Below are positions 9,001 to 24,791 of a DNA stretch of 64,000 nucleotides, one piece after another (positions within the stretch are counted from its first letter, which is position 1; every line of letters starts with the position of its first letter). A program made the position numbers and the translations under genes. The notes beneath the pieces were generated by a model. That model saw only the letters and a program-made list of their open reading frames with translations, ran no database searches and was not told the DNA's origin. The DNA comes from an uncultured Rhodospirillales bacterium (GTDB lineage Bacteria > Pseudomonadota > Alphaproteobacteria > ATCC43930 > CGMCC-115725), in NCBI GenBank assembly GCA_903828515.1, contig CAIKMD010000007.1:744001-808000 (forward strand), read 5' to 3'.

Positions 9001-12000
9001 TTCAGCGCCGCGCTGACCCTCGGCATCCTGCAGGTCACCGGCACCAACGGGAACTACGCCTTCACCAATGCCGGCAACGTCACGTCCAACGGCACGTCGC
9101 TGTCCGGCGGCGTCTTCGTCGATCTCCATCCGAAGACGTCCAATACGCTGGCCGACCTCGGTGCGAAGACCAGCGACATGGCGACCCCGACCAGCTTCGA
9201 GATCGACGGTGTCGCGAGCAGCAACAACGAAGTCGTCACCCTGACCCTGCCGAGCGATTTCAGCGACGCGGACGCGCAGGCGGCTTTCAATTTCAACGTC
9301 GTGATCGACGGAACCTCGGTGTCGGTGAGCGTGGCCGCTGACAGCAGCCGCCACATCGCGGACCTCCCGACCGCGATCAACACGGCGCTGCACACGGCGA
9401 CGGTCAAGCAGACGGTGATCGACCCGCATCACGGCAACGCCGGCACCAACGTGGCGCTCGACACGCTCGTCACGGCGGCGTTGAGCGGTCACACCCTGAC
9501 CTTCACCGCGACCGATGCCGCGCTCGGCATGGCCAATGGCGTGACGCCGACGCTGGCGCTGGCCGACGCGCCGCTCGCTTTCTCGGGCCTGAGCAAGAGT
9601 TTGCGCGTCGAGATCGCGGCCAATCTCGACCTCGACATCGCTTTGACCGCGGCGGTCGGGCTCGGCTCGGCGGTTCAGCTTCCCTCGGTCAGCACCGAAC
9701 TCATTTTCCAGTATCAGCTCGACAAGGTCCTCGTCGGCACCGATCCCGACGCGATCAGCGGCGTCATCATTCCGTTCACCTTCAAGGACGTGACGATCGA
9801 TCTCGGCAGCTTCCTCACCGGTTTCCTCAAGCCGATTCTCGACGAAGCGAACAGCCTGATCGCCCCGCTGATGCCGATGCTCAACTTCCTGACCGCGCCG
9901 CTGCCGGGCATTTCCGACATCGTCGGTCATTCGGTGACGCTACTCGACATCGCGTCGCTGCTGGGCGGCGACAGCAAGCAGGTCAAGGCGATCGTCGACG
10001 CGGTTCAGGAAATCGACGACGTCGCCAATCTGGTTACCGCGATCGAGAACCTGACGGGCAGCGGCTCGATCAAATACGATTTCGGAACCTTCGAGTTCGG
10101 CAAGGCGTCGATCGGAACGGCTTCGGTCGCGGGCGCGCATCAGGCGAGCAGCGATGCGAATTCGACCTTCGACCCGATCTCGGGCAAAGCGACGCTCGCC
10201 AAACAGAATGTCGATACCAACGGCGTCAGCGCCGTGGCGCCGACTCACGACGACACCGCGAACGCGAGTCAGGCGAACGCCGCCAACCAGATCCAGAAAC
10301 AGATCGGCAAAGGCAGCTTCGAATTCCCGTTCCTCCAAAATCCTCTCGGCGTGCTCGAGCTGATCATGGGGCAGACGCAGAACCCGGTGACGCTGTTCGA
10401 ATGGAACCTGCCGAGCATCACCTGGACGTTCAGCAAGCAATGGTCGTTCCCGCTGGCCAGCGTCGCGGTCGCCAGCGTCGACGCCGTGGTGGGCCTCGGC
10501 ATCAGCGTGTCGATCCATGTCAGCATCGGTTACGACACTTACGGCATCAGCGAGTACATTCAGACCCACGATCCGGTCTTCATCTTCGACGGGTTCTTCG
10601 TCGACGATACGAAGGGCCCGCAGTTGACCGCCAACGTGTCGATTACAGCGGGCGCGGAACTCGACCTGACGCTGGTGCAGGTCTCGCTGACCGGCACGAT
10701 CGGCGGCATCATCAATCTCGAACTCTTCGATCCCAATCACGACGGCAAGGTCCGGCCGTCCGAAATCATCGGCCTGCTCGAGGCCAATCCGAACCCGCTC
10801 GGTCTGTTCGAGGTGTCGGGCTCGATCTACGCCGAACTCGATCTCAGTGTCTGGGTCGGCGCCGGTCCGTTCACGATCTTCTCCGAGGACTGGACGATCG
10901 TCAAAGGCACGCTCGTGTCGTTCGATATTCAGCCGACGCCGGGCACCGTTCTGGCAACCACGGTCGGCGGCGTCGTATCGCTCAACATGGGACCGCTCGC
11001 CAGCCAGCGCCTGTCCGGCGACATCAGCGGCACCAATGGCGAAAATTACCTGATCACCGGCCACAACAACAACGACATCACCATCGATTTCTTCGGCGAC
11101 AGCCCGCACGCGGTTCAGACGGTCAACGGCGCCACCCAGATTCTGGTCAATTTCGGCGAGGACAACGCGATCCTCAGTTTCTCCGCCGCCGGCGGTGGGA
11201 TCACCCTGCCGGTCACCCCCGGTCAGCCGTCGATCATCATCACGGGCGGTGACGGCAACAACTTCATCGACCTGACCGGGATCAACGACGCGGTCGTCAT
11301 CCTCGGCAATGGCAACAACATAATCATCGGAACCGGAATCGGCGACACGATCACGGTCGGCGACGGCAACAACACGATCATCGACGGCGCCGGCAACGAC
11401 ATCATCATGGCCGGCGCCGGCAACAACTACATCGATGCCGGCGGCGGCGACGACAAGGTCACGGTCGGCAACGGCAACAACACGATCGTCGGCGGGACCG
11501 GCAAGAACACGATCACCGCCGGCACCGGCAACAACATGATCATCGCCGGAAGCGCGTCGAGTGTCGCAGGCTCGGTCATCGATCCGGATACGAGCGCGAT
11601 CTATACGGTTTTCGGCGTCGATCCCGCGAGCCATATGCTGTCGAATCAGGCGGACCCGGCCGACGACAACAGCCAGGTCACGATCATCGGCGGCGCGGGC
11701 GACAACATCATCCTCGGCAGCAGCAAGGCCGATACGTTCAAGCTCGGCGGCTCGGGCGACGACATCATCGTCGGCGATATCGGCACGATTACTTTCGCGG
11801 CGGGCCAGGATTTCGCGACGGTTGGGCATACCGCCATCGTCTCGATCGCGGCGACCGGATTGGTCGGCGGTAACGATACGATCGACGCGACGGTGACGAC
11901 CGGCGACATCATGGTCCTCGGCGGGGCCGGCAATGACTCCATCGCGGCGGGCACCGGCACGGCCATCCTGCTGGGCGACGACGGCGCCGTGGATGGCGCG

Positions 12001-15000
12001 GCCGGCGGATCGGGTGGACAGTTCTCGATCGTCTCGACGTCGATCGCCAGCGGTAACGATACAATGACCGGCGGTGTGCTCGCCGACGTCATTCTGGGTG
12101 GCCCGGGCAACGATACGCTGGACGGCGCTTCGGGCAACGACATCATCCTCGGCGACGACGGCACGGTGATCCGAACGGCGGCGCTGGGCAGTGCCGCGGC
12201 CCTGGTCAGCGTCACGGAAACTCAGGATGCAGTGGCCGGCGGCGCCGATGCGATCGAGGGCGGTTCGGGCAACGACATCATCCTGGGCGGCGGCGGCGCC
12301 GATTCGATCGACGGCGGCACCGGCAACGACATTCTGATCGGCGATTACGCGACGGTGACGCCGCCCGATGGCGCGCATTACGACGTTCTCGGAATCGACC
12401 AATCCGCTTCGGATGCCGGTAACGATACGATCACCGCCGGCGTCGGACAGAGCGTGGTGATGGGCGGCGGCGGCGGCGATTCATTGATCGGCGGCGCCGG
12501 CAATGCCGTGATCTTCGGCGATTCCGGCGAGGTCGAACGCACGGCGGCGCTTGCCATCGTCAACGCGAACACGGTCGACGGCACCGGTCTCGGCGAGGAA
12601 TCGCTCGGCGGCGACGATATCGTCAGCATCACCGGCGACGGCAGCAATCTCGTCTTCGGCGGTGCCGGCAATGACTCGCTGACCATTACCGGTGCCGGCA
12701 ACAACGTGGTGCTGGGCGATCTCGGCGCGGTGAACTTCGCCGGCTCGGTCATGACGGTGTCGGGCTACAACGCCGCGGGCGATACCGGTACGTCGTCCTA
12801 TGCCGCGACCGACACGATCACGGTGTCGGGCAACGGCAGCAACGTCGCGTTCGGCGGCGCGGGTGATGACTCGATCGGCGCGTCGGGTGCCGGTGCCAAC
12901 TATCTCCTCGGCGATTCCGGCGTGGCCGTCCTCAACGTCATCAACGCGGTCGCGAGCCTGGTCAGCGTCACCACGGTCGACTCCGTCACCGGCGGCGAAG
13001 AAGCGATCGGCGGCAACGACACGATCGCGCTCGCGGGCGCCAGCAACAACGTCGCGTTCGGCGGCGCGGGCAACGACATTTTCACGATTACCGGTACCGG
13101 CGATAACGTCGCGATGGGCGATCTCGGCACCGCGTCGGTGACCGGCACGACGCTGACCGTCGCCGGACACAACGCGACGATCGGCGGCAGCGATACCCTG
13201 ACCGTTGGCGCGGGCGCCAGCGGCAACAACATCCTGATGGGCGAGGCCGGGATCGACACACTGACCGTCAATGGCGGCGGCAACAATATTCTATTGGGCG
13301 ATGCCGGTACCGCGACGGTGACGGTCGGCACGCTGGCGCTCGGTACGGTGACCACGGTCGATGGCAGCTCGGGCGGCGAGGAAGCCATCGGCGGGAACGA
13401 CCTCATCACCGTCAACGGCAACGGTAACAACATCGGCATGGGCGGCTTCGGTCAGGACCTGCTGACCGTCAACGGTACCGGCAACAACGTGATGCTGGGC
13501 GATCTCGGCACCGCATCGGTGAGCGGCGCGATATTGACGGTCGCCGGACATAACGCGAGCCTCGGCGGCAACGACACTTTGCTCGTCGGCGGTTCCGCCA
13601 GCGGCAACAACATCCTGATGGGCGAGGCCGGCGCCGACACGCTGACCGTCAATGGCGGCGGCAACAATATTCTGCTCGGCGACGCCGGCACGGCGGCGGT
13701 TACCGTCGGCACGCTGGCCCCCGGCACGGTGACGACCGTCGACGGCAGCGTCGGCGGTCAGGAAACGGTGGGCGGCAACGACCTCATCACCGTCAACGGC
13801 AACGGCAACAACGTCGCGATGGGCGGGTTCGGCCAGGATCTGCTGACGGTCAATGGCGGCGGCAACAATACGATGATGGGCGATCTCGGTGTCGTCACCG
13901 GCATCGTGGTCGATGGCGTCGCCGGACTGGATATTATCGGTCACAACACGGCGCTGGGCGACGGCAACACCAACTACAACGACAGGATCACGGTGGCCGC
14001 CGGCGCGCTCGGCAACAACACGCTGATGGGCGAGGCAGGCGCCGATACGCTGCAGGTTTACGCTGCCGGTACCTACCTCAATTCGGGCAACAACGTCGTC
14101 TTCGGCGACACCGCCGAGGTCACGCGCGCTGCGATGGTCGCGATCGCCGGGCCGATTGGCGACACGATCACGATCACGCCGTCGGTCGTCGGCGCCGGCG
14201 GCAATGCCGCGACCGAAACCGTGATCGCCAACGGCGCGACCAATTCGTTCGAGATTCGCGGATCGGCCACCGCCGGCGACAGAGTGAGCGTGACCCTCCT
14301 CGATACCATCAGCGGTGTCACAATCACCGCAAGCCATACGGTCGTGGCGGGCGACACGCTGCAGATCATCGCGCAAAATCTGGCGGCGGCGATCAATCCG
14401 CAATTGATCGGATCGTTCTTTGGCCTGTCAGCTTCGGGGTGGTTCGGGCCGCTCGCGGAATCGGTCGATGAAGCGCATGGCGGCAACGATTCGATCGTGA
14501 TCGGACGGCCCGGCAATCCCGATCTGACCGACGGCGAAAACGTGGTCATCGGCGGTTTCGGCAGCGATACGGTCGATGTCTATGGCAAGGGCGACAACAC
14601 GATCCTCGGCGATCAGGGCCTGATCACGCCGCCGACCGGCACGCATCCCGATGCGTTCGGCCGCGATACCTCGATCGGCGACGCGGATATCCTCACCCTC
14701 GACGCCGGCGCCGATGGCAACAACGTGGTGATGGGCGAGGCGGGCAACGATACGATCTCAAGCGTCGGCACCGGACTCGACGTGTTCTACGGCGACACCG
14801 CGATCGTCACGCATCAGGTCATCGGCAACCGGCTCTATCCGTTGACGATCGCCTCGACCGATCCCGGGCAGGGCGGCACCGACACCATCCTCGTGTCGCA
14901 GGGAACCAACTTCATCGACGGCGGCTCGGGCGACGACACGCTCAACGGCGGGGCGGGCAACGACTACCTTATGGGCGACAACGGCACCTTCATCTTCGGC

Positions 15001-16230
15001 GCGAATGTGGCGACCGCGATGACGCCGATCGAGATGCGCACGACCGATTTCGCTTATGGCGGCAACGACGTCATCAACACCGGCGGTGGCGCCTATAATT
15101 ACGCCTTCGGTGGCACTGGCGCGGACATGCTGCAGGGCGAGGGCGGTGCCGACGCGCTGGCCGGCGACCAGGCGGCGTTCCTCTGGAACCCCGACGGCAC
15201 GCGATTCGAGATGACCTCGCTCAACGAAAATCCGACGGGGAACGCGAATGATTCGCTCGACGGCGGCGCCGGCAACGACGATCTGATCGGCGGCAAGGGC
15301 ACCGACCAGCTCACGGGCGACGCCGGTAACGACATCATCTTCGGCGATGACGGTCATATCTTCTATAAGAACAATTTCGAGAGCATGGCCGAGACCCTCA
15401 ACCAGCTCTCGGAGAGCGGCGATACGATCTCGGGTGGCGACGGCAGCAACTATCTCTTCGGCGGCGGCCCGAACAACAATCATTTCTTCGCGAATCCGTT
15501 GCGCGATCTGATCTTCAATACCGACGGTCATATCGATTTCACCAACGGTAACGATCCGAACAACCCGACGCCGACGGTTCAGTGGAACATGCCGCCCTTC
15601 ATCGGCAATCCGATTACCTCGGCGATCGGCAACTGGTTCAACTGGGTGCTTTACACCGAGGACGGCACCCAGATCGGCAGCAGCAATCTCTATGAGGACG
15701 TCTCGGTCTCGATCCAGGCGCAATACCTCGCGCAGCTCGGTCACGAGGAGACGCCGCCCGGCGCGCCGGACTACGTGGCGCCTCCGCCGCCTCCTGCGCT
15801 TCTCGGCGCGATCGAGGCGCTATTCGGTCTCATCGAGAATGGCTCCGATTCCTCCGATCCTCTCGGCGGCAACGACAATTCGGATTTCCTCAGCGAAGGC
15901 GGCGATACGAATTACGCGTCGGCTGATGACGGCGCCGGCGCCGGTGCGGTCGACTATGCGTTGATTCCGGCGCTGCCGCTCGAAGTAGCGGATTCGAGCG
16001 GCGATTCCGCGGCCATTCTGCATTTCGCACAAGGCGCCTTTACCACGACGCTCGATGCGCCCGTCGCGTCGGAACCCGTTACACAAACGGCGGCGGCAAC
16101 GCTTATCTTCGACAGCAACACCGGTTTATGGGTTGCGGATGACAACAATGGCGACGGACCGCAGCTTTTATTGAACGGCGAGATGCCCAGCATCGAATTA
16201 GCTTTGGCGGGAGCCGCTCTCGCGGCATAA
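1..16230 (+). CDS. Giant RTX-type repeat protein, 5' end outside window
   Basis: The reading frame is open from base 1 to the TAA at 16230. A GTG at 22 lies inside the frame, so the true start is almost certainly further left. At least 5,400 residues are visible. Roughly the first two thirds is Ala/Thr/Gly/Val-rich beta-type sequence with about 13 degenerate ~90-residue modules (AGD, VSYTV, GDT, AIN motifs) near 1020, 1600, 1890, 2580, 2910, 3190, 3450, 4070, 5740, 6260, 6470, 7950 and 14240. Leu-rich amphipathic segments recur near 500-690, 5090-5350, 8400-8640 and 9800-10070. An EF-hand loop sits at 10729-10764, followed by RTX-like GGxGxD / GNNxIxG repeats to about 15480. Cys is essentially absent. 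Secretion genes follow, so it is inferred to be an exported, calcium-stabilised surface adhesin or matrix protein. The C-terminus ends in a short acidic then hydrophobic segment, compatible with a type I signal. The function is inferred, not shown. Confidence 0.9.
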   Translation, partial: TVQATVDVTTAFTLDVTIDTTSTILSTSSVLSAGDTTLQDHFTFKTDSVDVTATVSATIPLHQEFDLGLLTLETTSAAPLSYTGAVNLEFDNVAASGIATAAPTVTVPGGGDPVVSLHLGLDLAAADMGVPGLTSGFVGALDVSGTVLDGNWSTQVSRTSGLSLDALQNFATFDPGKVVAAFQSLDSYINHLASAQLTNVTIPFTNTTIGDVINFAQNFQTDVVDKLESSGQLLGFPHGITTTAPDGSHGVSIVVTPQDLTNDPLPANFSLNVAGTGIDGGNLLTSAAVISLTNQYNGHNIASVADLVGEINQVLAAAGGTTALGQLHSILTVKTVYSADEALTVSGQSVTVAFASGATTANNGDHVQLTLTNPAINGGSVTVTYVTKDTDDATAVAAGLASAINGNTALQAAGISATNANGTLAVVPNNGATTLTVPTSTGPDNSVEFDIAQTGNGAAPANLALAAPAASFGSLAEFAENLGAALGYADATTAVANAIADLGLQYDPTLNAIEFNLNYGASLSLGNDPTETLTAANDTVIIGGKVATGDQLSMAVGYGSGSSETVSYTTIAGDTTSTVTTALAHAINTDATLQGQGITATGVGSTLQVSNTGHTATLAGTVGTGKETLDTTVTIGGTATAGDIVDIVVQNSVLPGGSVTVTYTTRAGDTPGDVAAALAAAINGNDALKTAKITSSYDGTVAPDLINVVTPGSVVGATTLTTGASGSIAFDVGFNLGDIASLAGSGNLTIAASVGLSMTVGFSLDPLGAQANGDPLLIDGAPIGTNTVLFDLPVWPSATATAPIALVTADQIANETGLPDFEIILRDGTLGTVEVQHGAIIDHVGATTTVIQGSGSDLTSLNIGGAVAVGDHLSVTVGYGSGLTKIVTYTTTAADNSSTAATHLAAAINADTTLQAAGVTAASAANTLHITAASGTLTLSGHATSGSETFDTQAITLGDLLTAFDDIKSANVDVTVAGKITGGDLMTLAIAGAGLANPVVVSYVVKTTDDVTQVAQGLADAVNANTTLQAAHVTATALTGATFGVTGGVSVTTNPGTATTASAGTDITVTGKAAAGDTVALKVTPSGNPAQTVSYALQSGDTTTDGVAHLVDQINQIAGVTATVSASITGATAVVLPNTGANTIDLVLGVGNTITVTTAQVGDALSLTVDGQNIAYVVKANLTSAADVAAGLVDAINHANLSGVSAAMTVAVTGATLAVPPPATETVTVAPGDGVTAIYNPTTAEIQVQDGTLLSTETPVSLGFQANQGASAAALSSAPVGAVSANAYYQAVLSATAPAGVDYTAANQFLIYLGNLPPAEVTVAAAAGRDAAGFATAIDTALTGIAIDPTMIGLSPSFTVAVPGSSQAGDTLTFAVHNVNLPNGEADVSYVVQSGDHASNIATGLVNAIKNNTTLTTAGVIATVPTGGTVVTVASTIDGTTTVNASVSGTHETLTAVTIPYSQLLTATSGTNGLVFSTTMYNVVSASSGSSASMAAAHFGVTINPVNTTLWALNSSAFTGDFAFSGTDLNGSSLPVGLLQSGPLYAETLADRFFFDNTGITANFTLTLANLDVQGTLGFIGFEAQGSGYVNLSAALMLTNPSGGTFVTFHDLENALTNDDLSSLWSFTVGAGAPGQPWADLNFSSIQLTGSGTAGSIIAELAGSLAPNPTIDISFSTPLTSISALLHATPDVTTTGLDSLKGISHLGFADIVAGLQAVLGVIDNQTGSSILTTPIPLIGLSLHDVLDYATDFANFITELQNDPATAIAQVNDIIHTALESVIGAAAQDVNLTYSSGSLFLSFQFNPSVTESLPFSLDLATLAQDVGVTLPSSVTDLVSADGSGMLSVTAGAALGVSVGFQINPAPAVGTTPLSTLNSGKGVATNGTGAADLAFLANGTQFAVNLDALATTTTVAVSGHTGFTVGGTPGEGEQLSVTLDNATLDGTKGAGSGAIVVTYTVGHGDTVTNAANALAQAINANDALGNAGITATVSGAVVTVAGATTVTSSVGANLQEVVDAINAASTGAGAHVVASINASGSIVFTDSSAAASTTPDAATDLGFTQTIAVAGANTVAVATSVGATETVTSNGTQFTVGGTVHAGDQLTVTVNGQAATPYTVSATDKLADVNAGLVQAINNLNLVGVTATAGGEAGVKVANDAVLIGGTTNAGDQVSLTVHYGGASSETVSYTVVKGDTADTIASALATKIAADTTLNGAHITAIATGSAVTLVASSGAPTLTGSVAPATSGGPTPETVTVGGSEQIAATLPAGADAKAEYQFNLSIDGNPVTVTVGANQARATPADLVAAINQALAFTSIDGGLVDPAKVGTHAVLSNLVGATLVGGQIVFAGADGSLGASPSLDIANAPPPPVGIGALGFSGPTTGTDSGGHTTLTATLPAHTDFTREYSFVLTVNGHDSTIDVPADASRTTESGFIKALNLAIGSTIVAKSDLNLGASGSVLLGQLIRATGVGTTLTLTASDSQLGSSHALAIKDVTQTGKVGLAVADLGDSGTAEALGFTSANDTIQAPGSTARVLTGTALTDSANEHQFFIDTTATGLTLNLGVSASNLSFSTNFGPLSISISNGSAILGAETALDSHGNPVSATDPNFAVSGPGSLIFGLHDGVALGEAGDSPVAGRLTFGEISASTSLFTVKIGGTETAGDSVSLTLSGNKISGSQPVSYTIASGDTAASVATHLADNINALHLTGVSARANGDTVVIDGAGKVTDTLSGTTEKVAIVSGLSNLLDVSSNFAVKVDLPVSFLGLAPVDVKIAIGNVLGGPSGWALDPTPWTLDLPNFSTLLGQLTSQFSVLNFLNSPEAVITGLDTLLGTLDTIFTQQVFGYQLPLIGPALDDAGDFIGVFRGNLIGYLDGLVADFKQSHPTEEPTTLNIIDGGINALLSKIGFTGGITGSIDNAAQQINFNLDITKDLFNGMINLSGNLGIPGLGISVSNGQIGLDLSTTIDLSFGYSIAKGFFLEPTLSGDHMLALNFAVTVPQTFSAALTLGILQVTGTNGNYAFTNAGNVTSNGTSLSGGVFVDLHPKTSNTLADLGAKTSDMATPTSFEIDGVASSNNEVVTLTLPSDFSDADAQAAFNFNVVIDGTSVSVSVAADSSRHIADLPTAINTALHTATVKQTVIDPHHGNAGTNVALDTLVTAALSGHTLTFTATDAALGMANGVTPTLALADAPLAFSGLSKSLRVEIAANLDLDIALTAAVGLGSAVQLPSVSTELIFQYQLDKVLVGTDPDAISGVIIPFTFKDVTIDLGSFLTGFLKPILDEANSLIAPLMPMLNFLTAPLPGISDIVGHSVTLLDIASLLGGDSKQVKAIVDAVQEIDDVANLVTAIENLTGSGSIKYDFGTFEFGKASIGTASVAGAHQASSDANSTFDPISGKATLAKQNVDTNGVSAVAPTHDDTANASQANAANQIQKQIGKGSFEFPFLQNPLGVLELIMGQTQNPVTLFEWNLPSITWTFSKQWSFPLASVAVASVDAVVGLGISVSIHVSIGYDTYGISEYIQTHDPVFIFDGFFVDDTKGPQLTANVSITAGAELDLTLVQVSLTGTIGGIINLELFDPNHDGKVRPSEIIGLLEANPNPLGLFEVSGSIYAELDLSVWVGAGPFTIFSEDWTIVKGTLVSFDIQPTPGTVLATTVGGVVSLNMGPLASQRLSGDISGTNGENYLITGHNNNDITIDFFGDSPHAVQTVNGATQILVNFGEDNAILSFSAAGGGITLPVTPGQPSIIITGGDGNNFIDLTGINDAVVILGNGNNIIIGTGIGDTITVGDGNNTIIDGAGNDIIMAGAGNNYIDAGGGDDKVTVGNGNNTIVGGTGKNTITAGTGNNMIIAGSASSVAGSVIDPDTSAIYTVFGVDPASHMLSNQADPADDNSQVTIIGGAGDNIILGSSKADTFKLGGSGDDIIVGDIGTITFAAGQDFATVGHTAIVSIAATGLVGGNDTIDATVTTGDIMVLGGAGNDSIAAGTGTAILLGDDGAVDGAAGGSGGQFSIVSTSIASGNDTMTGGVLADVILGGPGNDTLDGASGNDIILGDDGTVIRTAALGSAAALVSVTETQDAVAGGADAIEGGSGNDIILGGGGADSIDGGTGNDILIGDYATVTPPDGAHYDVLGIDQSASDAGNDTITAGVGQSVVMGGGGGDSLIGGAGNAVIFGDSGEVERTAALAIVNANTVDGTGLGEESLGGDDIVSITGDGSNLVFGGAGNDSLTITGAGNNVVLGDLGAVNFAGSVMTVSGYNAAGDTGTSSYAATDTITVSGNGSNVAFGGAGDDSIGASGAGANYLLGDSGVAVLNVINAVASLVSVTTVDSVTGGEEAIGGNDTIALAGASNNVAFGGAGNDIFTITGTGDNVAMGDLGTASVTGTTLTVAGHNATIGGSDTLTVGAGASGNNILMGEAGIDTLTVNGGGNNILLGDAGTATVTVGTLALGTVTTVDGSSGGEEAIGGNDLITVNGNGNNIGMGGFGQDLLTVNGTGNNVMLGDLGTASVSGAILTVAGHNASLGGNDTLLVGGSASGNNILMGEAGADTLTVNGGGNNILLGDAGTAAVTVGTLAPGTVTTVDGSVGGQETVGGNDLITVNGNGNNVAMGGFGQDLLTVNGGGNNTMMGDLGVVTGIVVDGVAGLDIIGHNTALGDGNTNYNDRITVAAGALGNNTLMGEAGADTLQVYAAGTYLNSGNNVVFGDTAEVTRAAMVAIAGPIGDTITITPSVVGAGGNAATETVIANGATNSFEIRGSATAGDRVSVTLLDTISGVTITASHTVVAGDTLQIIAQNLAAAINPQLIGSFFGLSASGWFGPLAESVDEAHGGNDSIVIGRPGNPDLTDGENVVIGGFGSDTVDVYGKGDNTILGDQGLITPPTGTHPDAFGRDTSIGDADILTLDAGADGNNVVMGEAGNDTISSVGTGLDVFYGDTAIVTHQVIGNRLYPLTIASTDPGQGGTDTILVSQGTNFIDGGSGDDTLNGGAGNDYLMGDNGTFIFGANVATAMTPIEMRTTDFAYGGNDVINTGGGAYNYAFGGTGADMLQGEGGADALAGDQAAFLWNPDGTRFEMTSLNENPTGNANDSLDGGAGNDDLIGGKGTDQLTGDAGNDIIFGDDGHIFYKNNFESMAETLNQLSESGDTISGGDGSNYLFGGGPNNNHFFANPLRDLIFNTDGHIDFTNGNDPNNPTPTVQWNMPPFIGNPITSAIGNWFNWVLYTEDGTQIGSSNLYEDVSVSIQAQYLAQLGHEETPPGAPDYVAPPPPPALLGAIEALFGLIENGSDSSDPLGGNDNSDFLSEGGDTNYASADDGAGAGAVDYALIPALPLEVADSSGDSAAILHFAQGAFTTTLDAPVASEPVTQTAAATLIFDSNTGLWVADDNNGDGPQLLLNGEMPSIELALAGAALAA
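10729..10764 (+). other. EF-hand / dockerin-type calcium loop codons
   Basis: The codons give DPNHDGKVRPSE, a complete 12-residue EF-hand loop with acidic or polar ligands at positions 1, 3, 5 and 12 and Gly at 6. It is followed by a short helix (IIGLLEANP). It lies between the Leu-rich/beta stalk and the RTX array. Confidence 0.7.
11236..15480 (+). repeat. RTX-like calcium-binding repeat region of the giant protein
   Basis: The encoded protein carries dense, imperfect nonapeptide-like repeats of the GGxGxDxL / GNGNNxIxGG type, characteristic of hemolysin-type calcium-binding beta-rolls. Many repeats have Asn where classical RTX repeats have Asp (GNNxIxG), so calcium affinity may vary along the array. 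The blocks are interrupted by 30-60-residue spacers of the form GD(L/A)GxxxV...TTVDG. One AGD/GDT module is inserted near 14240. Confidence 0.85.
12718..13881 (+). repeat. Long tandem repeats inside the RTX region (402, 381, 381 bp)
   Basis: The motif gatctcggc recurs at 12718, 13120 and 13501, and a gatctcggt at 13882. This gives units of 402, 381 and 381 bp, all multiples of three. The 13120 and 13501 units are very similar at nucleotide level (for example cggcaacaacatcctgatgg at 13221 and 13602), implying recent in-frame duplication. The first unit is more diverged and carries length changes. Confidence 0.8.
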
Positions 16231-16290
16231 CTTCGCCCTGGGATCGGGCGCTCGGCGCCGCTCCCCTCGAATGCATGACAGGAGATGTTA

Positions 16291-16614
16291 ATGGCTGAGA
16301 ACGGTAAACCGATGACCCCCGAGCTTGCCCGGACTGCCGGCAGCGGGACCACGACCACGGTCGGCGGCACCAAGATCCGCTGGGACGACAGCAAGATGCG
16401 CAGTTCCTACGCGAATGTCTGCAACGTCGCGACGACGCGGGAAGAGATCATGCTGCTCTTCGGGACCAATCAGGCTTGGAGCAAGATGAATGAGGAAGTC
16501 GCCATCGAATTGAGCGACCGGATCATCCTCAATCCCTTCGCGGCGAAACGGCTGCTGGCCCTGCTCGCCAAGACGGTCGAGGAATACGAGAAAGCCTATG
16601 GCAGTCTCGGCTAA
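16291..16614 (+). CDS. DUF3467-like small protein
   Basis: A 107-residue cytoplasmic-looking protein with no signal peptide or membrane segment. The core SSYANVCNVATTREEIMLLFG followed by DRIILNPFAAKRLLALL resembles the DUF3467 family, whose function is unknown to me. AGGAG at 16280-16284 is six bases before ATG 16291, so that start is preferred over ATG 16285, which has no spacing. It lies 60 bp downstream of the giant gene and 31 bp upstream of the GAF/HlyD gene. It is therefore probably co-transcribed, and it may be a chaperone or accessory factor for the giant substrate. That role is inferred from position only. Confidence 0.75.
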   Translation: MAENGKPMTPELARTAGSGTTTTVGGTKIRWDDSKMRSSYANVCNVATTREEIMLLFGTNQAWSKMNEEVAIELSDRIILNPFAAKRLLALLAKTVEEYEKAYGSLG

Positions 16615-16645
16615 TCGGCCGAACTGACACGCTTCGTTCACGGCC

Positions 16646-18547
16646 ATGAGTACCAACCCCCGCGACAACGAACCGCAACCGGTGCCCGGCGATGCCGCCG
16701 CGCGCTTCGGCGACGCGGCGGTGTGGCGTCGGCTGCTGTCGTCGGATTCGCTGGAATCCTTCAGCAGCGCGTGGCTGGAAATCTTTTGCGCCGAGATCGA
16801 TCTTGCCTTGGGGCCGCTGATCGGCCGCGACAAGGTCGTCTACCAGGCGATGGTCGCGCTGGGCGATCCGGAAACCAATAAATACGCCCGGACCGGTTCC
16901 TATGGCGGCGAGAAAGAGGCAAGCCTTCTGCTCGCGAAGGCGGCCGAGCGCGCGATGCAGTTGCGCCGGGGCACGGTGCAGCGCGACGACACGCGCGAGG
17001 TACCGTGTCAGCTCGGTCATCCGATCATGGTTGGCGAACGGTTGCGCGGTGTCGTCGCGATCGAACTGGCGCCGGGCGCACGCGATCATCTCGATCACGC
17101 GATGCGCCTCGCCCAATGGGCCACGCCCTGGTTCGCGCGACTGTTTCAGCCGGGTCACGAAGTCGTTCCCGGCACGCGGATCGACGCGCTGGAAATCGAG
17201 GCGGTTCGTCTCGCCGGTGCCGGGCAGACCGCGTCGGGTGCGGCCGAGGCGCTGGCGACGAATTTGGGCGCGCGGCTTAATCTGCGAAAAGTCAGCTTCG
17301 GCGTCCGCCGTCACCTGCAAACCAAATTGCTCGCCGTCTCCGATGGCGGGTTCGCGTCGGTTCTGAACGACTATCTGTCGGTCATCGTATCGGCGATGGA
17401 CGAGGCGGCGGATTCCGATGCCCCGATCTTCTATCCGCTGGCCGTCGGCGCGCTGGCTCGGCCACATGCCGCGCATGCGCGGCTTTGCCGCGAGCACGAG
17501 TGCGATTGGGCGCAATCGGTTTCGGCGACGGTTCCGTGGACGAGGCTGCAGGACGCGCGGCTGGTCCTGACCGCCGAAGGGGTGGGGACACCACCCGAGA
17601 GCACGGAGCGGACGCTCGAAACTGTTCTTACCGCCGTCGCGCCGATCATCCTCGCGCGGTTGCGGGCCGAACGCTCCTTTCCGACCCATCTCGGCGAAAG
17701 CGTCCGTTATGTGTGGCATCGAAATTTCGCGGCCGGAGCGGGCGCGCGGCGCTGGCTGCTCATCGCGAGCGCGGGTGTCCTTGCTTTCATCAGCATGGTT
17801 CCCGTGCCCTATCACGTTTCCGCCGAAGCCTCGCTCGAGGGCGTGGTTCGTCGCGCGTTGGTGGCGCCGTTCGACGGCTATGTTGCCGACGCGACGGCGC
17901 GTCCGGGCGACCGGATGACCGCCGGCGCCGTTCTCGCCCGGCTCGAGGATCGCGAACTCCGGCTGCAAAAGAACGATCTTCAGGCGCGGATTGCCGAGGC
18001 GCAAAAGCAGATCAGCGAAGCGATGGGCGACCGCGACAACGCCAAGGTCAATATCCTGACCGCGCGGCTCGATCAGGCGCAGGCGGAACTCAATCTCGTG
18101 CAGGACAATCTTGGGCGGACGCAGTTGACCGCGCCGTTCGATTCCATCGTCGTTTCCGGCGACAGGACCCAATCGATCGGTGCGCCGGTCCGTCGCGGGG
18201 ATACGCTCTACGAGGTGTCGCCGCTCGACGATTTCCGCGTCGCCATCGACGTGCCGCAGGCGGATTTCGGCGATGTCGATATCGGACAGGCGGGGAACCT
18301 TCTCCTGTCGTCGGTGCCCTATCGCAGTTTTGCCTTCGTGGTCGAGCGAATCACGCCGATCGCCAGCGCGCGTGAAGGCAAAACCACCTTTCGGGTCGAG
18401 GCCCGGCTCGTCGACAAGGATGCGTTGATGCGTCCGGGCATGCAGGGTGTCGCCAATGTTTCCGTCGGCTGGCATCCGATGATCTGGATCGGCACCCATC
18501 ACATCGTCGACTGGTTGCGCATCAAGCTCTGGGCCTGGCTGCCGTGA
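16646..18547 (+). CDS. GAF-like / HlyD hybrid membrane-fusion protein
   Basis: A 633-residue protein in two halves. Residues about 30-345 form a soluble region resembling a GAF sensory fold. A single membrane segment follows near 368-388 (WLLIASAGVLAFISM). After it comes a periplasmic HlyD/biotinyl-lipoyl adaptor part with the half-lipoyl signature (VVRRALVAPFDGYV, then LTAPFDSIVVSG) around a coiled coil rich in QKQISEAM and LDQAQAEL sequence. HlyD-type adaptors bridge an inner-membrane exporter to a TolC channel; a large cytoplasmic sensor-like domain on one is unusual. No clear Shine-Dalgarno precedes the ATG. The stop overlaps the next GTG start (GTGA), so the two are translationally coupled. 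Confidence 0.82.
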   Translation: MSTNPRDNEPQPVPGDAAARFGDAAVWRRLLSSDSLESFSSAWLEIFCAEIDLALGPLIGRDKVVYQAMVALGDPETNKYARTGSYGGEKEASLLLAKAAERAMQLRRGTVQRDDTREVPCQLGHPIMVGERLRGVVAIELAPGARDHLDHAMRLAQWATPWFARLFQPGHEVVPGTRIDALEIEAVRLAGAGQTASGAAEALATNLGARLNLRKVSFGVRRHLQTKLLAVSDGGFASVLNDYLSVIVSAMDEAADSDAPIFYPLAVGALARPHAAHARLCREHECDWAQSVSATVPWTRLQDARLVLTAEGVGTPPESTERTLETVLTAVAPIILARLRAERSFPTHLGESVRYVWHRNFAAGAGARRWLLIASAGVLAFISMVPVPYHVSAEASLEGVVRRALVAPFDGYVADATARPGDRMTAGAVLARLEDRELRLQKNDLQARIAEAQKQISEAMGDRDNAKVNILTARLDQAQAELNLVQDNLGRTQLTAPFDSIVVSGDRTQSIGAPVRRGDTLYEVSPLDDFRVAIDVPQADFGDVDIGQAGNLLLSSVPYRSFAFVVERITPIASAREGKTTFRVEARLVDKDALMRPGMQGVANVSVGWHPMIWIGTHHIVDWLRIKLWAWLP

Positions 18548-20700
18548 GCAACGCGTTCGGAGCTTTGCAGCTCAAGCCGCAACTCAAGCCCAACGTCGAT
18601 GTTTTCCGCCATGTCTATCGCGGCGAGGTTTGGTATCTGTTTCACGATCGCAGCGTCGACCGCTTTTACCGCATGTCGGCGGCGGGTGCCGACATCGTCG
18701 CGGCGATGGATGGAAAACGCAGCCTCGCCGATATTTTCGACGATTATAGCGCACAGAGCGCGAATGACGAGATCGATCCGCAACGCGGCACGCAGTTCCT
18801 CGCGCAATTGAATGCCCTCGGCCTGATGCGCCTCGATACCGCGCCCGATGCGGAGGCGCTCGAACGCAAGCGCGATATGATTCGCCAGCGCCGGTTGTTT
18901 GCGTCGCTCAAAAGTCCGCTGACGCTACGCATTCCGTTGATCGATCCGACCCCGGTCCTGCGCCTGCTCGAGAAAATAAGTCCTTATCTCTTCAATCCGC
19001 TGGGTTTGACGCTCTGGGCGCTCGTCGTGCTGACCGGCGCCATTGTCGGCGGGTTGCATTGGGGCGAGTTGACGATCGATCTGACGGACCGGTTGCTGTC
19101 GCTGCAAAATCTGGCGGTCGCGGCGTTCGTCTATCCGTTCATCAAGGTCGTTCACGAATTCGCCCACGCCCTGGTGCTGCGCCATTACGGTGGCGAGGTA
19201 CGCCGCATGGGCGTCATCGTCGTGGGCTTCATGCCGGTTCCTTACGTCGATGCGTCGTCTTCGGTGGTGCTGTCGAACAAGTATTGGCGGATCATGGTCG
19301 ATGCCGCCGGCATCATGTCCGAACTCTTCATCGCGGCCTTGGCGATCATCGGCTGGTCGATGGCCGAGCCGAGCTTCTTTCGCACCGTTTGCTACGACAT
19401 CGTGATGATCAGCGGATTGTCGACGCTGCTCTTCAACGGCAACCCGCTGCAACGCTACGACGGTTACTACATCCTGTCGGACTGGGCCGAAATTCCCGGC
19501 CTCGGCATGCGGGCGGCGCAGCAGATGATGTACTACGTTCGGCGTTATCTGCTCGCCGACGACCAGGCGCAGCCGCCGGCGGCAACGCCGGGCGAGCGCA
19601 TCTGGTTCCTGATCTATGGACCGGCATCCTTCCTCTATCGGACGGCGTTGGTCTTCACCATCGTCTTCTATGTGATGCATGCCTATCCGCTGATCGGTAC
19701 CGCGCTCGGTATCTGGACCTTCGCCGGCGTGTTGGGGGCCCCGGCGACCGCTCTGGTTCGGGTGGCGCGCACGCCCGATCGGACGCGGCGCGGTAACGCG
19801 GGCAAGCGGCTGGTCCTCGTCATCGGCGCGGTTTGCCTCTTGCTGTTTGTCGTGCCGGTTCCGTCGGGCGTGGTGACGAGCGGCGTGGTGTGGCTGCCCG
19901 ACGATGCGAATGCCCGGCCGCTGACCGCCGGCGAGGTGATCGAGGTGATGGCCGCGCCGGGCATGACGGTCGAGGCCGGTGCTCCGATCCTCCGTCTCGA
20001 AAACCGCGAGACGGCGATGCGGGTGGCCAAGGCTCAGGCCGCGTTGGCGGAAATGAATGCCGCTTATACGCAGGCCTTTGCCGAGAGCCGGGTCCAGGCG
20101 GCGATCTACGCCGACAAGGTGATCCAGGCACAGAAAGCATTGGTCGAGGCGAAGGAGGAACAAAACGGATTGCTCCTGCGCAGCCCGGCTACCGGCCGAA
20201 TCATCTTCTCGAACTATCCCGATCTGCCGGGTCGCTATCTCGGCAAGGGCGAGGTCGCGGCGGTGATCTGGAACGGCGGCAAAGTCACCGTCCGCGCGAT
20301 GGTGCCGATGGGCGAGATCGATCAGATTCGCGCGGGGACGAAGAGTGTCGGGATACGGCTTGCCTACGATCCGATGACGGAAATTCCGGCGCGGATATCG
20401 CGGATCGTCCCGGCGGCGACCGACGAATTGCCGAGCGCCGTGTTGTCGCTCGAAGGCGGTGGACCGTTCGCCGTCGCGATGGACTCGCCGGCCCCCGGCA
20501 TGCGCGGGAATAATGTCGTCGATCGTGCGCCCCATATGAGCGAAGCGATGTTCGAGGTCGATGTTCAGGCCGACCGGCCGCTTCCCGTCGAATTTCTCAA
20601 CGGCGCGGCGAATGTCCGTTTCGATCTCGGTTGGGAACCCGCGGGTATTCAACTCTATCGTTATGCGCGGCTGGTATTTTTGAGGTACTTCAATGTCTGA
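18544..20700 (+). CDS. PqqD-like / M50 zinc protease / HlyD triple-fusion membrane protein
   Basis: A 718-residue protein. Residues about 10-100 resemble a PqqD-type winged helix (peptide-recognition RRE fold): FHDRSVDRFYRMS, then MDGKRSLADIFDDY. Residues about 140-430 hold several membrane helices with the site-2-protease signature HEFAH (H204, E205, H208) and the matching NGNPLQRYDG (N298...D306-G307), so all zinc ligands and the catalytic Glu are present. The C-terminal third, after a membrane helix near 425, is a lipoyl/HlyD-type adaptor with a coiled coil. The GTG start overlaps the previous stop and the end overlaps the next ATG. It probably forms the inner-membrane core of the export complex; whether it cleaves or simply binds substrate is unknown. 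Confidence 0.83.
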   Translation: MSNAFGALQLKPQLKPNVDVFRHVYRGEVWYLFHDRSVDRFYRMSAAGADIVAAMDGKRSLADIFDDYSAQSANDEIDPQRGTQFLAQLNALGLMRLDTAPDAEALERKRDMIRQRRLFASLKSPLTLRIPLIDPTPVLRLLEKISPYLFNPLGLTLWALVVLTGAIVGGLHWGELTIDLTDRLLSLQNLAVAAFVYPFIKVVHEFAHALVLRHYGGEVRRMGVIVVGFMPVPYVDASSSVVLSNKYWRIMVDAAGIMSELFIAALAIIGWSMAEPSFFRTVCYDIVMISGLSTLLFNGNPLQRYDGYYILSDWAEIPGLGMRAAQQMMYYVRRYLLADDQAQPPAATPGERIWFLIYGPASFLYRTALVFTIVFYVMHAYPLIGTALGIWTFAGVLGAPATALVRVARTPDRTRRGNAGKRLVLVIGAVCLLLFVVPVPSGVVTSGVVWLPDDANARPLTAGEVIEVMAAPGMTVEAGAPILRLENRETAMRVAKAQAALAEMNAAYTQAFAESRVQAAIYADKVIQAQKALVEAKEEQNGLLLRSPATGRIIFSNYPDLPGRYLGKGEVAAVIWNGGKVTVRAMVPMGEIDQIRAGTKSVGIRLAYDPMTEIPARISRIVPAATDELPSAVLSLEGGGPFAVAMDSPAPGMRGNNVVDRAPHMSEAMFEVDVQADRPLPVEFLNGAANVRFDLGWEPAGIQLYRYARLVFLRYFNV

Positions 20701-21532
20701 CCGGATCATCGCTGCACGGGTTCTGTTATTGGTGACTCTGTCGTTGGCCGGCGCCACGCGCGCCCTGGCGGCGGACGCATCCATCGACGGCTATCCCTGC
20801 CAGGTCGTTGCCAGCGAGACGGTGGAACTGGCGAGCCCCGTACCGGGCGTTCTCGAGAGCCTCAAGGTCGATCGCGGCGATAAGGTAACCAAGGGACAGG
20901 TGCTCGCAACCTTGCGCGCCGATGTCGAGCGCGCCGGTCTGGCGCTGGCGTTGGCACGTGTCGCGGCGACCGGGGAACTTTCGGCCAAGCGCGCCAAGCT
21001 CGCTTATGCATCGCGGCGATTGGAGCGCAACGAGAAGCTTTATCAAACGCATCTTGTTTCCGAAAACGACATCGACGAACTGAGGACCGATCGCTCGGTC
21101 GCGGCGCTCGAGGTTCAAGCCGCCGAAGAAGCAATCCGCGTCGCGTCCAAGGAAGCGGATCGGGCCAAGGCCGAAGTCGACATTCACGTCATCTACAGCC
21201 CGATCGACGGTTTCGTCACCGCGCGCAAATTATCGGCGGGCGAACTGGTCCGCGACCAATCGATCATGGTCATCCAGAAGATCGACCCGCTCTTCGTCGA
21301 GACGGCATTGCCGGTCAGCCTGCTCGGCCAGGTGAAGGTCGGGTCCGAAGGTCAGGTGAGTTTTGACGCGCCCAACGTGGCCGCGCGCGCGGGAAAGGTC
21401 ACGCTCGTCGATCCCGTCATCGAGCCGCGCAGCAATACCGTCGGGGTCCGCATCGTTCTCGACAACAAGAACGCGGCGACGCCGTCGGGCACGAAATGCA
21501 GCGTCCGTTTCGGCACCCTCGCGTCGCATTGA
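20693..21532 (+). CDS. HlyD/RND-type periplasmic adaptor protein
   Basis: A 279-residue adaptor of usual single-lipoyl size. The N-terminus has a Sec signal (VLLLVTLSLAGATRALAA). The half-lipoyl motif (LASPVPGVLESLKVDRGDKV) is followed by a coiled coil (about residues 75-160), then the second lipoyl half (VIYSPIDGFVTARKLSAGEL) and a beta-barrel. The ATG at 20693 overlaps the TGA of the M50/HlyD gene by eight bases, so it belongs to the same operon. It is the third HlyD-domain protein in a row and probably contacts the TolC-like protein encoded downstream. Confidence 0.88.
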   Translation: MSDRIIAARVLLLVTLSLAGATRALAADASIDGYPCQVVASETVELASPVPGVLESLKVDRGDKVTKGQVLATLRADVERAGLALALARVAATGELSAKRAKLAYASRRLERNEKLYQTHLVSENDIDELRTDRSVAALEVQAAEEAIRVASKEADRAKAEVDIHVIYSPIDGFVTARKLSAGELVRDQSIMVIQKIDPLFVETALPVSLLGQVKVGSEGQVSFDAPNVAARAGKVTLVDPVIEPRSNTVGVRIVLDNKNAATPSGTKCSVRFGTLASH

Positions 21533-21599
21533 CCGAAGCGATACCGGACGTTCCGCCCTCGTGGGTGGCGTTGTCGCGCGTGTGTGCCGGTTTTCGTGA

Positions 21600-21770
21600 G
21601 TAAAGATTTCCATCGATGACAATGAATTCTAAGTAGAAACACTTATATCGCTGATATATATAGACAAAATACGGTAAATATTTTATTTTATCTTAGGGAA
21701 AACGATATTAGGCAACAATAGAAAGCCAAGTATCGTTTCGATGTAAATAATACTGACGGTTCGACAGCTA
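21600..21770 (+). promoter_or_regulatory. AT-rich intergenic region upstream of the TolC-like gene
   Basis: The 296 bp between the adaptor and the TolC-like gene contains about 170 bp that is far more AT-rich than the rest of the window, with runs such as gatatatatagac and ttttattttatctt. No credible ORF is present. It is a likely promoter and possible nucleoid-protein binding region (H-NS/MucR-like silencing is an inference). No perfect operator can be named from it. Confidence 0.5.
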
Positions 21771-21828
21771 TCTCCCTCGGCCTGTCCAGGCTCGTGTCGA
21801 ACCTGTTGTGTTTCGGTAGGGGATTGGT

Positions 21829-23418
21829 ATGCGGCGTGTTTGGTTTATCGGCGTGGCGCTTCTGACCGGATCGGTCGCGGCCCACGCGCAGACGGCCACG
21901 AACGGCGCAGCCAATGGCGCGCCCCTCGTGCTCGTCGCGACGCAGGCAGAGCCCGCTCCCGCACCCACGGCGGCGCCAACGCCGGCACCGCCGCCCGAAC
22001 ACATCTCGGTGCCGGCGCCGTCGCTCGATATCAAGCTGCGCCACGCGGGTGGGCTCAACGCGCAGGATTTGGCGCCAGCCCCGCGACAGACCGCGCAGGA
22101 GATCGCGCGCCCCACCGCGATGAGCCTGATCGAGGTCTTCACCGCGGCCAACAAGGGCGCGCCCTCGGTCGAGGCCGCCAAGGCCGGTTCCGACGCCGCG
22201 ACCTATGGACTTCACGACGCTTATTTCGGCTTTCTGCCGCGCGCCCAGGTCACGTTCAGCAAGCAGCGCGAAGAACAGCAGGTCCTGCGCACGGACAACC
22301 CGGTCTATCAGACCGGCCGCGGCTGGTTCAGCAATTCGGATCGCACGCTTCAGGTCGTTCAGCCGATTCTCGACGGACGGCTTTTCGCGCAACTCGAAGG
22401 CGCCTACGCGGTCCGCAACCGGGCCGGCTATGAACTGACCCTGGCCGGCCAGAAGATCATCGACGACACGATCGAATCGTATTTGCTCGGTCTGGCGGCG
22501 CTCGACGATCTTCACCTGGCCCAGGAAGAAGTGCGGGTCCTCGAAAATCATTCGAACGATTTGAAGCAGCGGCTGGCGCGCGGGCTCGGCAACGATTCCG
22601 AACTGCACGACCTGACGGCCCGGCTCGAAAAAGCACGTGCCGACGTCTTCTCGGCCGATTCGAATTTCGACAAAGCGTTGGCCGATCTGCGCAAGGTCAG
22701 CGGCGTCGTCGTGCCGAACCTTTATCCGCTGCGGACCGATTTTGGGATGCCACCGCCCGAACCGAACAACCAGGACGATTGGGTCTCGGCGGCGGGCCGG
22801 CGCAATCCCGAACTGGCGGCTCTGCGCGCGGGTGCCGATGCGGCCGAGGCGGATTATCACAAGGCGATCGGCGCGGTTCTGCCGCGTGTTGACGTGTTCG
22901 CGACGGATGACCGACTCGATGCCGGCGGCAGCCTCTTCGGCGGCGGTGCGCTGACGGATCAGCGCACTTTCGAAATCCGCCTGACGGTTCCGCTCTTCAA
23001 CGCCGACGGGCAGGGTTACCCGCTCTTCCAGATGGCGGCCAAGGCGAGGCAGCAACGGTATAGCGGCCTCGATCGTCAACGCGACGTCGAGACCAAAGTC
23101 CGGGCGGCATTCATCCAGTCGACGTCGAATGCGAAACGATCTCAGGCGTTGCTTGCCTCGATGAAAAGCCGGGATCAGTTTACAGACGACCTGAACAAGC
23201 GCTTTAATGCCGGCGTCGGATCTTTCAGCGATGTGCTCGATGCCGAGCGCGACGCGTTCCGGGCCCGGCGGGAACTCTTGAGCAGCCACTACAACTATCT
23301 TGTCTCGATGATGCAGCTCAAATACTACGCAGGCGCGATCAACGGCGACGATATTGTGTTCATCAATGGTTTGCTCGACATACCGCCAGGCGGGGGGCGC
23401 GCGTCACCGCGATCGTAA
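21829..23418 (+). CDS. TolC-family outer-membrane channel protein
   Basis: A 529-residue protein with a Sec signal (FIGVALLTGSVAAHAQ), a Pro/Ala-rich linker to about residue 90, then the outer-membrane efflux protein fold. Two similar halves each contain long alpha-helical segments, for example LKQRLARGLGNDSELHDL and FNAGVGSFSDVLDAERD. The second is the typical TolC helix signature with the G.....DVLDA pattern. AGGGGA precedes ATG 21829. It would supply the outer-membrane exit for the HlyD-type adaptors upstream, and has its own promoter region. The stop codon overlaps the next ATG. Confidence 0.88.
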   Translation: MRRVWFIGVALLTGSVAAHAQTATNGAANGAPLVLVATQAEPAPAPTAAPTPAPPPEHISVPAPSLDIKLRHAGGLNAQDLAPAPRQTAQEIARPTAMSLIEVFTAANKGAPSVEAAKAGSDAATYGLHDAYFGFLPRAQVTFSKQREEQQVLRTDNPVYQTGRGWFSNSDRTLQVVQPILDGRLFAQLEGAYAVRNRAGYELTLAGQKIIDDTIESYLLGLAALDDLHLAQEEVRVLENHSNDLKQRLARGLGNDSELHDLTARLEKARADVFSADSNFDKALADLRKVSGVVVPNLYPLRTDFGMPPPEPNNQDDWVSAAGRRNPELAALRAGADAAEADYHKAIGAVLPRVDVFATDDRLDAGGSLFGGGALTDQRTFEIRLTVPLFNADGQGYPLFQMAAKARQQRYSGLDRQRDVETKVRAAFIQSTSNAKRSQALLASMKSRDQFTDDLNKRFNAGVGSFSDVLDAERDAFRARRELLSSHYNYLVSMMQLKYYAGAINGDDIVFINGLLDIPPGGGRASPRS

Positions 23419-24791
23419 TGGCTGATACGCCGCCGCGCTCGGCCGCGGCCCTGCTCCAGGAAGCGCGCGCGCTCTATGGGGCGCAGCGCTACGCCGACGC
23501 GGCATCGGCGGCCTTCGTCGCTCTCAAGGATTCACCGCGCGATCCCGATGTCTGGAACGCGCTCGGCGTTTTTTTGCGCTCGGACGGCAAGCCCGAGGAA
23601 TCGATCGCCTGTTATCGCCGCGCGCTGGCGATCGCACCGGCCCATGCCGGCGCCTGGACCAATCTCGGCAATTCGCTCAAGGACATGAAACAGGTCGAGA
23701 GCGCCATCGCGTGCCATCGTCGCGCGCTGGCGCTGCAGCCGGAAAACGGCAGCTTTCATCACAACATGGGCATCGCCCTGGTGGCGGCGGGTCGTTTCCG
23801 CGAGGCGCTGGCCGCCTATCATCGCGGCCTGCTGTTCCGGCCGAACGACCCGCATCTCCGGTGGGATCGGGCGTTGGCCCAGTTGCAGCTCGGCGAGTTC
23901 GCCGGGGCCTGGGTCGATTACGCCGCCCGGTTCGAGACCGGCGAATTGCCCAAGCGTGCCGCACCGGGTCAGCCGTGGAACGGGCAGCGTTTTACCGACA
24001 AGCGTCTCGTGGTTCTCTCCGAGCAGGGTTTCGGCGACGCGATCTGGGCGGCGCGCTATTTCGATCGCACCCGCGGCCTCGGTGGCACGTTGATCGTCGA
24101 ATCGCGCCGCGAATTGATTCCGCTTTTTGCCGGGATGAATGTCGCGGCCGAACTCCCCGAGAAGAACAGCGCGCTGCCGGACGCCGACTGGCATTGCCAT
24201 TTGTGTAGTCTGCCGGGTGTCTTCACCGCGACGGTATCGGACATTTCGGGCAAGCCCTATCTGACGGCGCCGGCCGATCGCCAAGCGAAATTTGCCTCGG
24301 CGATGGAGCGCGGCAGCGGCAAGCTGCGCGTCGGCATCGTTTGGTCCGGCAGCACGACGTTCAAGGGCAATCGCGAACGGGCCGTGCCGCTGACCACGTT
24401 CGTCGAGTTCTTCGCCCAAACCGGCGTGCAGCTCTACAGCCTTCAGAAAAGTCCGCCGAAAGAAGAGGCGAGCATTCTCCAGGAGAACGCGATCATCGAT
24501 CTCGGGCCGCTGCTCGGCGACTTCGCCGATACGGCGGCGGCGGTCTCGCTGCTCGATCTCGTCATCATGACCGACAGCGCCGTCGCGCATCTGGCGGGCG
24601 CGCTGGGCTGTCCGGTGTGGGTGCTGGTCGGCAAATCGCCGTTCTGGATCTGGGGTGGTGAAGGGCAGACCACGCCGTGGTATGATTCGGTTCGGATTTT
24701 CCGGGCGCCGGCCTGGAACGCGTGGAACAGTGTCTTCGACGAAGCATCCGGCGCCTTGATCGATCTCCTCTCCCAAACCAACGAGCGATAA
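23418..24791 (+). CDS. TPR protein with GT9-like glycosyltransferase domain
   Basis: A 457-residue protein. Residues about 10-160 contain four tetratricopeptide repeats (for example PDVWNALGVFLRSDGKPEES and AGAWTNLGNSLKDMKQ). Residues about 180-450 resemble the heptosyltransferase (GT9) fold: LRVGIVWSGS, then a late nucleotide-sugar site MTDSAVAHLAGALGCPVWVL. No membrane segment is present. ATG 23418 overlaps the TolC stop (TAATG), so it is translationally coupled to the channel gene. TPR-glycosyltransferases can modify secreted proteins or cell-surface polysaccharide. Coupling to a secretion channel suggests the giant protein or its anchor as substrate, which is inference. Confidence 0.75.
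   Translation: MADTPPRSAAALLQEARALYGAQRYADAASAAFVALKDSPRDPDVWNALGVFLRSDGKPEESIACYRRALAIAPAHAGAWTNLGNSLKDMKQVESAIACHRRALALQPENGSFHHNMGIALVAAGRFREALAAYHRGLLFRPNDPHLRWDRALAQLQLGEFAGAWVDYAARFETGELPKRAAPGQPWNGQRFTDKRLVVLSEQGFGDAIWAARYFDRTRGLGGTLIVESRRELIPLFAGMNVAAELPEKNSALPDADWHCHLCSLPGVFTATVSDISGKPYLTAPADRQAKFASAMERGSGKLRVGIVWSGSTTFKGNRERAVPLTTFVEFFAQTGVQLYSLQKSPPKEEASILQENAIIDLGPLLGDFADTAAAVSLLDLVIMTDSAVAHLAGALGCPVWVLVGKSPFWIWGGEGQTTPWYDSVRIFRAPAWNAWNSVFDEASGALIDLLSQTNER

Follow-up and report, generated by a model that had tools for sequence, protein, structure and literature searches.

Proteases that read and remove leader peptides at the membrane are known from the biosynthesis of ribosomally synthesized and post-translationally modified peptides (RiPPs). 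The daptide protein MpaP (NCBIfam NF041824) has been described as an intramembrane leader peptidase that depends on a RiPP recognition element (RRE) (PMC10036551), and EpeP, an M50 protein of an epipeptide pathway, is thought to both cleave and export EpeX (PMC10885120). The energised transporters covered in a 2021 Chem Rev review are of the ATP-binding cassette (ABC), resistance-nodulation-division (RND) and major facilitator superfamily (MFS) classes (PMC8277102). Giant proteins bearing the N-terminal LEPR-XLL tag (NF012209), some with open frames of more than 10,000 codons, are encoded by many bacteria from the environment without an assigned export route; the tag has been noted in a Vibrio giant protein (PMC10868602), and we found no export route for it in the openly accessible literature. 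Here we analyze a stretch of 64,000 nucleotides (hereafter the window) from the genome of an uncultured Rhodospirillales bacterium (GCA_903828515.1, contig CAIKMD010000007.1, positions 744,001 to 808,000). It encodes, downstream of such a giant, a 718-residue protein (18544..20700, + strand, GTG start) in which a PqqD/RRE domain, a site-2 protease (S2P) core and a HlyD adaptor are fused. This fusion protein probably forms the core, in the inner membrane, of machinery dedicated to the export and processing of LEPR-XLL giants, and the best reading of this machinery is an ABC-independent exporter combined with a leader peptidase.

The fusion protein resembles the RiPP leader peptidases (daptide MpaP and epipeptide EpeP/YydH/LiaK) in having a PqqD/RRE-type N-terminus followed by an M50 core, in the same order. 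It differs from them in its additional HlyD adaptor and in its gene neighbors, which are TolC, HlyD and giant genes rather than RiPP modification enzymes. With type I secretion systems (T1SS; HlyB/HlyD/TolC and the Lap-type LssB), the locus shares HlyD adaptors, a TolC-type channel and a giant repeat/RTX substrate without a Sec signal peptide. Unlike T1SS, its core operon has no ABC ATPase, its substrates carry a conserved N-terminal tag, its inner-membrane protein is an S2P/RRE protein, and most relatives encode a SecA-like ATPase. Accessory SecA2 systems likewise place a dedicated second SecA-family ATPase beside the substrate gene, as seen here in the relatives and not in the window, but the SecA-like protein has about 668 residues, is without the scaffold/wing region, and lies beside HlyD and S2P genes in diderm bacteria. 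No description of this gene cassette was found in the openly accessible literature, against which alone its novelty is judged, and genome comparisons suggest an undescribed system that would process and export giant surface proteins. If so, a dedicated reader, protease and adaptor would supply the export route of LEPR-XLL giants, RiPP-style leader reading would be linked to bulk protein secretion, and a TolC-linked system would be powered otherwise than by an ABC, RND or MFS pump.

Fold and active site of the fusion protein

An earlier sequence-only reading had assigned a PqqD-like N-terminus, an intact site-2 protease and a HlyD arm to this open reading frame (ORF). We modeled the protein with AlphaFold2 (mean predicted local distance difference test score, pLDDT, 88.7). 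Residues 12–97 (18577..18834, +) adopt the three-strand, three-helix winged-helix fold of PqqD/RRE domains and can be superimposed on the leader-containing lasso-peptide RRE of TbiB1 (5v1v) with a Z score of 11.0 and a root-mean-square deviation of 2.5 Å over 86 residues, and on a second leader-bound lasso RRE (6jx3) with a Z score of 10.4. At the other end, residues 438–701 (19855..20646, +) form a HlyD/MexA-type adaptor with a helical hairpin at residues 488–541. The region of residues 438–705 contains the lipoyl, β-barrel and hairpin elements of a periplasmic adaptor, aligns with MacA/MexA at a Z score of about 14.8 in the structural comparison, and matches the MacA-MexA profile with an E value of 2.6e-8. 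Both terminal domains read from the letters are therefore present in the model.

The S2P core was assigned from sequence rather than from a structural match, because adaptor matches filled the structure-match list. Seven long helices lie between approximately residues 152 and 436, a topology that would leave the RRE on the inner side of the membrane and the adaptor on the outer side. The daptide metalloprotease model NF041824 covers residues 13–409 with an E value of 4.2e-42, scoring 144.6 bits against an equivalog cut-off of 300. In Pfam, the fusion protein alone matches M50 (E 0.0025; 17.6 bits, under the cut-off of 27.2), PqqD (E 0.053) and HlyD_3 (E 1.6e-7). Across 59 family members, M50 was detected in all 59 at E<0.1, PqqD in 52 and HlyD_3 in 55.

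The helices carry both motifs expected of an M50 protease, an HExxH and a downstream NPxxxxDG-type sequence, at the residues previously read: HEFAH at 204–208 (19153..19167, +) and NGNPLQRYDG, which holds the third ligand, at 298–307 (19435..19464, +). The residues H204, E205, H208, N298, P301 and D306 are constant in all 39 aligned members, a set that includes the window copy and relatives approximately 25–39% identical to it, and the same six are constant in a second alignment of 59 members. Because these key residues are invariant in both alignments, the two motifs are not chance occurrences, and the claim of an intact site-2 protease, with its zinc ligands and catalytic glutamate all kept, holds across the family. 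This conservation speaks for a working protease rather than a scaffold.

LEPR-XLL giants and their pairing with the fusion protein

The giant gene enters the window at its first base (1..16230, +) and encodes more than 5,400 residues of a secreted-type protein there, with RTX-like repeats near its C-terminus. Its N-terminal tag (...LVIEAIEPRLLMSAS...) lies upstream of the window at about -490 to -437 (G000:C7:743510-743563) and is matched by the LEPR-XLL model at 21.9 bits, above the curated cut-off of 17. The tag and the main body of the giant are in different frames, and a single apparent frameshift some 320 bases upstream of the first window base (near L103:17680, in the interval L103:17570-17790, window about -430 to -210) separates them; it is either an assembly error or real. 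Among giants of other genomes, 20 were inspected, and their tag lies at residue 11–101, mostly after an Arg/Lys-rich stretch, and no hydrophobic stretch was found in any of these 20 leaders (highest 19-residue mean of 1.45 in the first 200 residues). The giant is the likely substrate, and the LEPR-XLL tag is likely the element that is recognized.

Genomes with the tag almost always carry the fusion protein. In a phylum sample of 398 genomes, which are not independent samples, 51 have a LEPR-XLL match (E<=0.01, frame of at least 300 residues), and the fusion protein is present in 50 of them; in the whole sample it is present in 92 (p about 1e-36). With a stricter E<=0.001 and no frame limit, it is present in 40 of 41. 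The T1SS ATPase LssB, used as a control, is only weakly associated with LEPR-XLL, with an odds ratio of 2.7, whereas that of the fusion protein is 379. LEPR-XLL is absent from all 90 genomes that have LssB but not the fusion protein, and 22 genomes have LEPR-XLL and the fusion protein without LssB; LssB is accordingly disfavored as the true exporter of the tagged giants. Within genomes, 35 of 77 LEPR-XLL matches are located within 15 kb of the fusion gene, with the giant typically just upstream, and many of the remaining matches are on other contigs of fragmented assemblies. Some complete genomes encode additional unlinked LEPR-XLL giants, from which it appears that one machine may serve several client giants.

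The tag also varies with the subfamily of the fusion protein. All 21 giants linked to the distant subfamily have LEPRxxxD, with (G/A)A next in nearly every case, whereas for the close and intermediate subfamilies 17 of 18 linked giants have S or N at the position of that D (p 3.5e-10), as illustrated by the variants LLSAD and MFDGA. This covariation is the pattern expected of a tag and its reader; shared ancestry contributes to it, and the counts are not independent.

The gene cassette, its relatives and the proposed export route

A tight run of genes (16285–23418) follows the giant gene on the same strand. It encodes a DUF3467 protein of 109 residues (16285..16614, +; PF11950, E 2.9e-23), a GAF-HlyD protein of 633 residues with an N-terminal GAF-family region followed by a HlyD adaptor (16646..18547, +; HlyD_3, E 1e-16), the fusion protein, a second HlyD-type periplasmic adaptor of 279 residues (20693..21532, +; HlyD_D23, E 2.8e-20) and a TolC-type outer-membrane channel of 529 residues (21829..23418, +; OEP, E 3.6e-39). 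The GAF-HlyD and fusion genes overlap by 4 bases. A GAF domain was detected in 18 of 22 members of the GAF-HlyD family and was not detected in the window copy. The channel matches type_I_sec_TolC with an E value of 7.9e-57 at 193 bits, under the cut-off of 225. The HlyD adaptor and TolC-type channel of a T1SS are thus encoded together, but the ABC exporter expected beside them is not: no ABC ATPase was found in the window cassette or in the core operons of relatives, where occasional ABC genes occur in the flanks only.

An alignment-based scan of GTDB representatives confirmed at least 529 candidate loci; a scan of genome contigs with the single sequence had yielded no confirmed relative. Eighty of these loci were retrieved, from Alpha-, Beta- and Gammaproteobacteria, Thermodesulfobacteriota, metagenome-assembled genomes (MAGs) labeled Myxococcota, Nitrospirota and Omnitrophota. 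The conserved cassette is giant, DUF3467, GAF-HlyD, fusion protein, (SecA-like ATPase), HlyD and TolC. Two culturable environmental strains, Methylobacterium brachythecii and Marinobacterium sediminicola, are among the carriers of the cassette. Among close relatives, 85 of 90 loci have GAF-HlyD directly upstream of the fusion gene and 39 of 90 have DUF3467; downstream, a truncated SecA-like ATPase is encoded in 82 of 89. The fusion protein is regularly accompanied by one or two more HlyD-type adaptors. The SecA-like ATPase has a median length of 668 residues; in one representative, the SecA_DEAD, SecA_PP_bind and P-loop_SecA domains were detected, and the scaffold/wing domain SecA_SW was not (E<=0.01), leaving the SecA domain set incomplete. 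The distant subfamily has two HlyD genes and often a TolC gene, without the SecA-like gene and without DUF3467.

In a tree of 117 proteins, the window protein groups with proteins from Rhizobiales, Rhodospirillales and Acetobacteraceae MAGs and with that of genome G631, which matches Vibrio rhodolitus in the gene order and gene sizes of the locus. This clade is supported at 98–99, and its members have no SecA-like gene. Since the outgroup has the gene, a loss in the window clade is suggested, with independent gain as the alternative. A dedicated SecA was sought in the window genome, and only a single housekeeping SecA was found, which is one candidate motor for the window clade.

These features can be arranged in a putative route. 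The cytoplasmic PqqD/RRE domain would bind the basic, non-hydrophobic N-terminal leader carrying LEPRxLLSxD, and outward threading of the polypeptide would follow, driven in most relatives by the adjacent truncated SecA-like ATPase. Along with the other two adaptors, GAF-HlyD and the small HlyD, the periplasmic HlyD domain would connect to the TolC-type channel, and the S2P active site would cut at or near the leader, releasing the giant from the machine. The precedent of RRE-dependent intramembrane leader peptidases in RiPP biosynthesis makes the cleavage step plausible. The earlier suggestion that this protein may recognize, clip and export a substrate agrees with its anatomy and genomic context, but its picture of a device made of a single protein does not, as it is accompanied by further adaptors, in the window by TolC and in most relatives by a SecA-like ATPase. 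More tentatively, the family may constitute a widespread new type of secretion, in which the RRE-S2P-adaptor reads and cuts the LEPR-XLL leader and giants of up to many thousands of residues are driven through TolC by a truncated SecA-like motor, or by something in its place, without an ABC, RND or MFS pump.

Several observations weigh against this route. A single motor cannot explain all members, because the SecA-like gene is missing from the distant subfamily as well as from the window clade. The window genome contains a complete canonical LssB locus about 700 kb away, with its own HlyD adaptor, TolC and LapG-like peptidase (L238:3890-11785). At the cut-off used, no LEPR-XLL match was obtained in about 41 of the genomes that carry the fusion protein. 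A class-level sample adds little, as it gave only two LEPR-XLL matches at E<=1e-3, both with the fusion protein, and four weaker matches in it come from genomes without the fusion protein. Computation shows the arrangement of the three domains, the constancy of the active site, the cassette, the LEPR-XLL pairing, the covariation and the core operons without an ABC ATPase; leader binding, cleavage, export and drive by the SecA-like ATPase are inferred.

The composition of the SecA-like neighbor bears on a different route, in which the giant crosses via SecYEG, driven by the SecA-like protein or by housekeeping SecA; LEPR-XLL would then be a Sec-type signal of an unusual kind, and the fusion protein would replace signal peptidase and pass the chain to TolC. 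The DEAD, preprotein-binding and P-loop domains of that neighbor would suit such a route, and the one housekeeping SecA of the window genome could be used by clades without the SecA-like gene. In SecA, the scaffold/wing region carries the two-helix finger that engages SecY. The SecA-like protein is without this helical region and the leaders are without a hydrophobic core, and we regard transport through SecYEG as unlikely. The LssB locus of the window genome, along with the RTX-like repeats of the giant, would instead fit an ordinary type I substrate exported by an unlinked LssB-type ABC exporter, with the fusion protein merely trimming or regulating it. This is improbable given the weak tie between LssB and the tag in the control above, in which other T1SS ATPase families were not searched, and given that adaptors are encoded within the cassette, as is a TolC in the window. 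The sequence-only reading had also allowed that the protease fold may now be only a scaffold; as a dead scaffold or structural channel, it would act without proteolysis. An S2P fold could form a water-filled path through the membrane, and the M50 score of the window protein is below the Pfam cut-off, but the six key residues are fixed in 39 diverse members, whereas dead enzymes usually lose them. A scaffold without proteolysis is disfavored, and very improbable in our judgment, because the catalytic glutamate and all ligands never vary.

Further features of the giants and of neighboring genes

Single open frames that contain LEPR-XLL matches reach 19,427 codons (e.g., G377:C115:112865, G336:C1:496108 and G330:C1:2799186). 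In a search for a possible C-terminal secretion signal of the T1SS kind, near the C-terminus an (I/V)xW or (I/V)(D/N/Q)W motif is present in 26 of 43 giants with SecA-like neighbors, compared with 10% of background windows; giants with (I/V)(D/N/Q)W include those at L066, L068, L126, L154 and L193. The giants of the window clade end otherwise, with FDxxxGxWV...GPxLLLxG. DUF4347 often follows LEPR-XLL (L088:1469-8503, +; L093:15249-16127, -), and its conserved H(I/L)LSHG motif resembles caspase-like self-processing domains.

The SecA neighbor raised the suspicion that the DUF3467 protein is a SecB-type chaperone; its model (pLDDT 74.7) has no match in the PDB (best Z score of 3.4), and we do not claim this role. 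Directly after the TolC gene lies a gene for a TPR protein with a weak glycosyltransferase-9 tail detected in Pfam (23418..24791, +), whose membership in the system is uncertain; in L063, a longer ORF related to it is located downstream of the cassette. An 866-residue autotransporter-like protein is encoded immediately before the giant gene (L103:14110-16710).

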